The notes under the pieces: generated by a model | Seen by the model: the letters and a program-made list of their open reading frames with translations, nothing else | Told to the model about the DNA's origin: nothing | The model's database searches: none | NCBI GenBank assembly: GCA_016185465.1 | Contig: JACPNO010000036.1 | Coordinates: forward strand, 1-64,000 | From: Candidatus Solibacter usitatus | GTDB taxonomy: Bacteria > Acidobacteriota > Terriglobia > Bryobacterales > Bryobacteraceae | Direction: 5' to 3' | Length of the DNA stretch: 64,000 bases | Shown: piece after piece, positions 40,549 to 41,771 of the stretch | Position numbering within the stretch: the first letter of the stretch is position 1 | How the letters are laid out: each line of letters opens with the position of its first letter | Position numbers and translations under genes: made by a program

Positions 40549-40698
40549 TTACTTACCGTCGGTCTTCTTGTCGGCTTTCTTCTTCTTGCCCTTCTTTTCC
40601 TTCTTTTCCATCTTCTTGTCGTCGTCGCGGCCGAAAGAAACGCTGGCCAGACCGGTCAGGAGCGACAAGCTGAGCATCGCGATCATCAATTTCTTCAT
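40549..40698 (-). CDS. Small secreted lysine-rich protein (49 aa)
   Basis: MKKLMIAMLSLSLLTGLASVSFGRDDDKKMEKKEKKGKKKKADKKTDGK; AGGAG ribosome-binding site upstream. Confidence 0.65.
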   Translation of the reverse strand: MKKLMIAMLSLSLLTGLASVSFGRDDDKKMEKKEKKGKKKKADKKTDGK

Positions 40699-40721
40699 TT
40701 GTTGGAGTTCTCCTTGTGATA

Positions 40722-40739
40722 GTGACGAACGTTCGTCAC
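40722..40739. promoter_or_regulatory. 18-bp perfect palindrome in the leader of the Lys-rich protein gene
   Basis: GTGACGAACGTTCGTCAC. Confidence 0.6.
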
Positions 40740-40933
40740 CCGGTATCATAGCGGAGCTTGCATGAACCTACCCTTAAGGTGGTATTAAAATCCTTTCATT
40801 TGATACAGTTCCGGGTCACAGCGTCCGATATTGTGTTTCTATGCCCGTAAGTGTATGAAATAAAAAGAAAACAAGCTCTCATCGACTTTCTGGCTGGCCA
40901 ATTCGGGAGATGCCGGATGCTAGGCTGGAATCG

Positions 40934-41146
40934 ATGAAAAAAGCAGATCTGGCCAAGCGGCTGGCAAAGCGTTCGGGCGTGTCTCCGGCTGAGGCGGCCG
41001 ACCAACTGGACCGCGTCGTCAACGGGATCCTCACGCATCTCCGCAGGGGACAGAAGGCGCTGCTGCCGGGCCTTGGCACCTTCACCGCCGGCCGGAGCGT
41101 GCGCTTCACGTTCGAACCTAAGATTGGCAAAACCCGTGGCAAGTGA
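40934..41146 (+). CDS. HU/IHF-like DNA-binding protein, short, apparently lacking the beta-arm
   Basis: MKKADLAKRLAKRSGVSPAEAADQLDRVVNGILTHLRRGQKALLPGLGTFTAGRSVRFTFEPKIGKTRGK. Confidence 0.85.
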   Translation: MKKADLAKRLAKRSGVSPAEAADQLDRVVNGILTHLRRGQKALLPGLGTFTAGRSVRFTFEPKIGKTRGK

Positions 41147-41771
41147 ATGGGCCTCGTCGGAAAGCGTGGCGGTGATGGTGCGGCAGTGTCTGAAAGAAGG
41201 CAAGCCGGTGGAGATCGACGGCCTGGGCCGCTTCGTGCCGAGCCCGCGCAAGGGGGCGCGCTTCGTCCCGCGCACCCAGCCCAAGATATTTCTGGCTTAC
41301 GTGCAGGAGGATGCCAGCGCGGCGGACCGCATTTTCGACGGACTTTGGGCGCGCGGGTTCGATCCGTGGCTGGATCGCCGCAAGCTGCTGCCGGGCCAGA
41401 ACTGGCCGCGGTCGATTGAGCAAGCCATCGAGACTTCGAAGTTTGTGATTGCCTGCTTTTCGCAGAACTCGGTGAGCAAGAAAGGCGGATTTCAGGCCGA
41501 GATACGCTATGCGCTGGACTGCGCGCGCCGCATCCCGCTGGACGATATTTTTCTGATTCCGGTGCGTCTGGATGCCTGCCGGGTGCCGCCCAGCATCCAG
41601 CGCGAGACGCAATACATCGATTTATTTCCCGGCTGGGATCGCGGGTTTGCGCGCGTGCTAAGCGTGATTCGCAAACAGATTAAACCGCGGGAGCGTGCGT
41701 GGCTGCGGGGAAAAACCTGGGGAAAAACCTGGGACAGTCTGCGCGTTTCCCGGAAGATTCGGGAAATTTAG
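41136..41771 (+). CDS. TIR-domain protein with N-terminal HU-like half-module
   Basis: GTG start (alternative ATG 41175) overlapping the HU gene. VAVMVRQCLKEGKPVEIDGLGRFVPSPRKGARFVPR aligns by eye with HU; PKIFLAYVQEDASAADRIFDGLWARGFDPWLDRRKLLPGQNWPRSIEQAIETSKFVIACFSQNSVSKKGGFQAEIRYALD...IFLIPVRLDACRVPPSIQ is a TIR domain with the conserved Glu. Confidence 0.85.
   Translation: MASEWASSESVAVMVRQCLKEGKPVEIDGLGRFVPSPRKGARFVPRTQPKIFLAYVQEDASAADRIFDGLWARGFDPWLDRRKLLPGQNWPRSIEQAIETSKFVIACFSQNSVSKKGGFQAEIRYALDCARRIPLDDIFLIPVRLDACRVPPSIQRETQYIDLFPGWDRGFARVLSVIRKQIKPRERAWLRGKTWGKTWDSLRVSRKIREI

Follow-up and report, generated by a model that had tools for sequence, protein, structure and literature searches.

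Most of what is known about TIR enzymes of bacteria comes from anti-phage cassettes with a patchy distribution. In SPARTA, a TIR-APAZ protein is combined with a short Argonaute, and in Thoeris the TIR protein ThsB is encoded next to a ThsA-type effector. HU and its relatives are nucleoid proteins, the DNA-bending members of which carry a β-arm and a C-terminal helix; a paper of 2017 that deals with new clades of HU reportedly considers roles in conflict for HU domains without an arm. A two-gene NAD-depleting system is known from Pseudomonas aeruginosa, where NatR–NatT forms a toxin–antitoxin pair located in the core genome (PMC11535050). The window analysed here, a stretch of 64,000 nucleotides from Candidatus Solibacter usitatus, a member of the Bryobacteraceae, contains an armless HU gene that overlaps a TIR gene whose product itself starts with half of an HU fold. 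Our analysis suggests that this pair is an inherited, apparently undescribed way to restrain a likely NAD-cleaving TIR enzyme. The features of the two genes are as follows.

40934–41146, + strand: partner gene for an armless HU-family protein of 70 aa (coding 40934–41143, then stop)
41136–41771, + strand: HU-half/TIR protein, 211 aa from GTG 41136, with an 11-nt overlap with the HU gene
41157–41276, + strand: HU half-module, TIR protein residues 8–47 (second helix and three strands, without the first helix and the arm), placed by hhalign, HU profile match and model
41280–41710, + strand: TIR domain (PF13676; best Foldseek matches are SPARTA TIR-APAZ chains, E = 7e-8)
41499–41501, + strand: codon for Glu122 of the FQAE motif, the putative catalytic residue, placed by phmmer alignment with SPARTA TIR

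The upstream gene encodes a member of the HU family, matching PF00216 in a Pfam profile search with E = 7.2e-9 and 36.2 bits (curated cut-off 22.4). The CCDC81-like HU family PF18175 is matched slightly below its curated cut-off (E = 1.3e-7), and solved HU structures are matched in a profile search, with 1hue the best (E = 1.2e-9). The structure matches end at position 51–57 and the protein itself ends in ...LPGLGTFTAGRSVRFTFEPKIGKTRGK, so that the DNA-gripping arm of approximately 20 residues and the C-terminal helix of ordinary HU are both missing; a reading of the sequence alone had already described a 70-aa HU-like gene without the usual arm, and it was right. Ordinary HU proteins in Bryobacteraceae have 99–110 aa, as opposed to 70 aa in the partner, and the stretch from the PGLG turn to the end is too short to hold the β-arm and C-terminal helix of a DNA-bending HU or IHF. 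The missing arm argues against ordinary DNA bending by the partner, although some contact with DNA is possible because the protein is still basic, with a median net charge of +7 across loci. Modelled by itself with AlphaFold2, the partner gives a poor structure (pLDDT 58) that cannot be used for structure searching, in which H18–37, E42–44, E48–52 and E58–61 follow the same order of elements as the half-module of the TIR protein. A low-quality monomer model might be expected of a subunit that requires a partner, which is a weak hint in that direction.

The frame of the TIR gene is open from TTG 41073, but its best start is GTG 41136, which reproduces exactly the 11-nt overlap proposed in the sequence-only reading. 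The N terminus of the TIR protein is a genuine HU half-module. Its match to PF00216 in Pfam is weak (E = 0.25); aligned with an HU profile by hhalign, the family's 48-residue N terminus scores 97.3% probability over 38 columns, from helix 2 through strand 3, and the best of 60 column-shuffled controls reaches 16%. In genome-wide searches, a profile built from 35 partner HUs finds the half-module at window positions 41181–41276 (E = 3.7e-4), as well as in genomes G001, G002, G006, G013 and G014. Six-frame searches connect the two proteins in both directions, the partner HU matching the TIR N terminus of relatives L004, L031 and L039, and the TIR N terminus matching the partner HU in L009, L010 and L043. 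The AlphaFold2 model of the TIR protein has a mean pLDDT of 85.5 and shows H8–20, E25–27, E31–36 and E40–45, followed by the TIR fold. An α-β-β-β HU fold is thus predicted for residues 8–45, and the earlier idea of a second armless HU half-module holds. Lacking the first HU helix, this half-module may fail to make an HU-type dimer.

The two genes are strictly linked. An HU gene lies directly upstream of the TIR gene in 121 of 124 distinct loci, and in 87 of these 121 the start of the TIR gene and the stop of the HU gene overlap; with a wider start limit, 19 of the 121 have no clear TIR start near the HU stop. One of the three exceptions is at a contig edge, and the other two, L182 and L202, have a degenerate HU upstream, a 79-aa ORF that, judged by eye, keeps the second HU half (VSLPGVGDLLPG and VRLPGIGSLLPG). 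In the genus of these two loci (g12), the HU partner has lost a recognisable first half but still shows the motif of the second half, which the TIR fusion keeps as well, and this suggests that the second HU half is the essential part. Median dN/dS is 0.17 for the HU gene and 0.13 for the TIR gene. HU and TIR form a conserved operon under purifying selection, bearing out the two-gene linkage proposed earlier. Chance or a mis-called ORF is excluded by the low dN/dS and by conservation across the 124 loci, and a frameshift fusion of HU and TIR is not supported for loci without an evident TIR start, the inspected cases mostly having ATG or GTG at −4, −8, −11 or −14.

Upstream of the HU gene we identified a further element.

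40918–40926, + strand: extended −10 promoter-like element TGCTAGGCT (hexamer 40921–40926, 7 nt before the HU ATG)

The pattern TGnTAnnnT, ending 4–14 nt (mostly 8–10) before the HU start, is present at 57 of 120 loci, whereas shuffled sequences give 0.7 on average. The looser TAnnnT at 6–12 nt occurs in 91 of 120 loci, compared with 6.8 after shuffling; among 43 control genes from the window, 8 have it. When eight upstream regions are aligned, the positions of TGnTAnnnTG directly before the HU start show no variation, and Shine–Dalgarno-like sequences are found at 19 of 120 loci. A −10 element whose spacing from the start codon, about 9 nt, hardly varies and the scarcity of Shine–Dalgarno sites point to a leaderless or nearly leaderless mRNA, and the operon probably uses a dedicated leaderless promoter. 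This arrangement offers a useful promoter model for Bryobacteraceae.

A small upstream gene overlapping a larger one is the layout of type II toxin–antitoxin pairs, and the order, sizes and overlap of the HU and TIR genes all agree with it. In a strict toxin–antitoxin pair, the basic HU protein would act as antitoxin and as operon repressor at its own promoter, the TIR protein would be an NAD-depleting toxin, and the role would be comparable to that of NatR–NatT. The charge of the HU protein and the precedent of NAD-depleting pairs in core genomes (PMC11535050) favour this explanation, but no operator palindrome is conserved beyond the −10 element in eight upstream sequences inspected by eye, the HU arms are missing, and the pair is inherited vertically as a single copy in 82% of Bryobacteraceae genomes. 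Such inheritance across most of a family is unusual for type II pairs. We regard a strict toxin–antitoxin function as unlikely, if worth keeping in mind.

The downstream ORF carries a TIR domain (PF13676, TIR_2; E = 9.6e-26, 91.1 bits, cut-off 28). In a phmmer alignment, Glu122 falls on residue 77 of Maribacter SPARTA TIR-APAZ, the residue changed in the catalytic mutant E77A (PMC10474274), so by alignment the protein has the catalytic Glu that NADase-type TIRs carry in αC. A Glu occupies this column in all 122 of the 122 sequences having a letter there, and the conserved Glu of the earlier reading is thereby upheld; the invariant TIR positions are F52, E58, D59, W78, D80, G87, W90, S109 and E122. 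The NAD-hydrolysing AbTir and SARM1 are also matched by profile. Just before the Glu, where a Trp is common in other TIRs, the Bryobacteraceae TIR has a Gly-Phe segment instead. The conserved motifs and the matches to NAD-hydrolysing TIRs make the protein a likely NAD-cleaving enzyme, although conservation of the Glu is no proof that it acts as an NADase, and several known TIR proteins serve as scaffolds. If the TIR were such a scaffold, the pair could be a lineage-specific regulator of the nucleoid or of transcription, in keeping with the nucleoid role of HU relatives and with a near-core status that suits a housekeeping function. Against this, the invariant positions include the Glu and the TIR motifs around it, and the HU arm is absent, and we consider a non-enzymatic role very improbable.

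Full-length relatives of the TIR protein are present in 163 of 200 Bryobacteraceae genomes (approximately 82%), including 117 of 140 good ones, and in 64 of 76 genera, nearly always as one copy per carrier. At the level of the order, 190 of 257 genomes have matches and, among the matches listed, all are in Bryobacteraceae; of 41 relatives, 23 were matched at a loose cut-off, with the full-length ones all in Bryobacteraceae. Across 396 genomes of the phylum, no match to the N-terminal columns was found outside Bryobacteraceae, and what matches elsewhere is essentially the TIR part. Two genomes of another family in the same phylum, G314 and G330, each have six TIR genes that match the TIR part without the HU half, some of them strongly (E down to 7e-43). 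Three genera have no full-length TIR in either of their sampled genomes (g9, g24 and g286; genomes G008, G489, G023, G497, G480 and G518), and absence thus looks clade-wise. Trees were scored by genus labels rather than against a species tree. For 104 TIRs sampled from 52 genera, the label changes 52 times along the tree, where the minimum is 51 and shuffled labels give a mean of 91 and a lowest value of 85; the HU tree has 52 changes against 89 when shuffled. The gene trees follow genera almost perfectly, which indicates vertical inheritance. The HU/TIR pair is near-core, vertically inherited and restricted to Bryobacteraceae. It was not found in phage records or IMG/VR, and plasmid matches, among those listed, cover the TIR part alone, starting at query residue 33 or later.

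The surroundings of the pair consist of housekeeping genes. Of 25 loci, the window among them, 12 have an Rrf2 gene near the pair, a cysteine-synthase-like gene (PALP, cysK) is beside it in at least 9, and TPR and uvrC genes follow downstream in 8 loci; the window locus carries both sides, Rrf2 with the cysteine-synthase-like PALP and TPR with UvrC. Rrf2, PALP and UvrC are also the most repeated Pfam families among 122 mechanically chosen neighbour ORFs, in which no PADLOC family has more than two members and the repeated PADLOC matches are mostly to kinase-type models. Among 60 other ORFs of the window, mad2 is the sole PADLOC family; two proteins match it (best E = 1.4e-22), which may be a generic match. 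Between Rrf2 and the HU gene, on the − strand at 40549–40749, lies a lysine-rich ORF of 66 aa with a signal-peptide-like start, for which no Pfam match was found, and the HU/TIR locus has no Rfam match. The setting is an ordinary chromosomal one, not a defence island, and a mobile or defence-island gene finds no support in synteny, tree, neighbour scan or the absence from phage collections.

These observations bear directly on the suggestion in the sequence-only reading of a Thoeris-like or Argonaute-like anti-phage system. In one form of such a defence function, DNA of the phage or one of its nucleoid proteins would be sensed by the HU partner and the half-module, which would free the TIR activity. 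Comparable bacterial TIRs are known mostly from defence, the best fold matches are the defence proteins of SPARTA, and PADLOC models of Argonaute-associated TIRs match the TIR part at 1e-20. However, near-core status and vertical descent speak against a cassette that moves between genomes for phage defence: almost all of the family has the pair, its neighbours are Rrf2/cysK or uvrC instead of recurrent defence genes, and no copy was found in phage or viral contigs. The distribution does not support the anti-phage suggestion as first stated, and we think such a function distinctly unlikely. 'DNA or nucleoid state' as the trigger was a guess, given that the arms used by HU to bend DNA are missing.

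The occurrence of an HU element in cis as well as in trans, strict linkage and overlapping starts are most simply explained by a physical complex, with the armless HU as the proposed control subunit of the TIR enzyme. We propose that translation of the two genes is coupled within one operon that has its own leaderless promoter, and that the armless HU would pair, through the HU dimer fold, with the N-terminal half-HU module of the TIR protein. The partner would separate the TIR subunits or fix them in a particular arrangement, keeping the NAD-consuming activity off, until a signal alters the HU–HU contact. The TIR domains would then come together and NAD would be cleaved or cyclised by them, which would stop growth or produce a messenger. 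On this view, the system would be a near-core switch for stress or abortive responses that Bryobacteraceae inherit, as opposed to a mobile defence cassette. The heterodimer and the restraint of the TIR by the HU partner are plausible elements of this mechanism, and promoter use, NADase activity and the trigger are putative ones. Taken as a whole, the proposal seems to us nearly an even call, falling a little on the doubtful side. More tentatively still, the pair could represent a hitherto undescribed class of TIR enzymes, controlled when an armless HU devoted to this task completes their split HU fold, and serving as a near-core switch of NAD metabolism maintained by vertical descent. A TIR gene in approximately 82% of sampled Bryobacteraceae genomes raises the question of what everyday use a host makes of a potentially self-harming NAD-consuming enzyme. 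A split HU fold would be a compact and testable means of controlling TIR assembly and, if true, would add the control of enzymes to the nucleoid packing for which the HU family is known.

NCBIfam and PADLOC contain no specific family for the pair, the best matches being the Argonaute-associated TIR models, and no mention of it was found in the literature searched, in agreement with the earlier view of an undescribed system. Similar to Thoeris ThsB, the TIR protein is short, stands alone and could produce a signal; the ThsB models match weakly (3e-4), however, and no ThsA-type effector gene adjoins the TIR gene, whose neighbours are Rrf2, PALP, TPR and UvrC. A search for STALD (ThsA) in 25 genomes gave no match, with the control likewise silent. 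NatR–NatT is alike in role only, as a two-gene NAD-depleting pair of the core genome; instead of a TIR its toxin is an NAD phosphorylase, and it has no HU half-fold. With HU/IHF (PF00216, TIGR01201) and the armless CCDC81-like HU proteins (PF18175, PF18291), the partner shares the helix–helix–β core and the PGLG turn, but it lacks the arm and C-terminal helix and is coupled to a TIR gene, and, unlike in those families, an HU half-module is fused to an enzyme-type domain. SPARTA TIR-APAZ is the closest TIR by fold and among the closest by sequence, with the position of the catalytic Glu (E77) in common. Whereas SPARTA has APAZ and a short Argonaute, the Bryobacteraceae protein ends after its TIR domain with no adjacent Argonaute gene, and the regulatory place appears to be taken by the N-terminal HU half and its HU partner.
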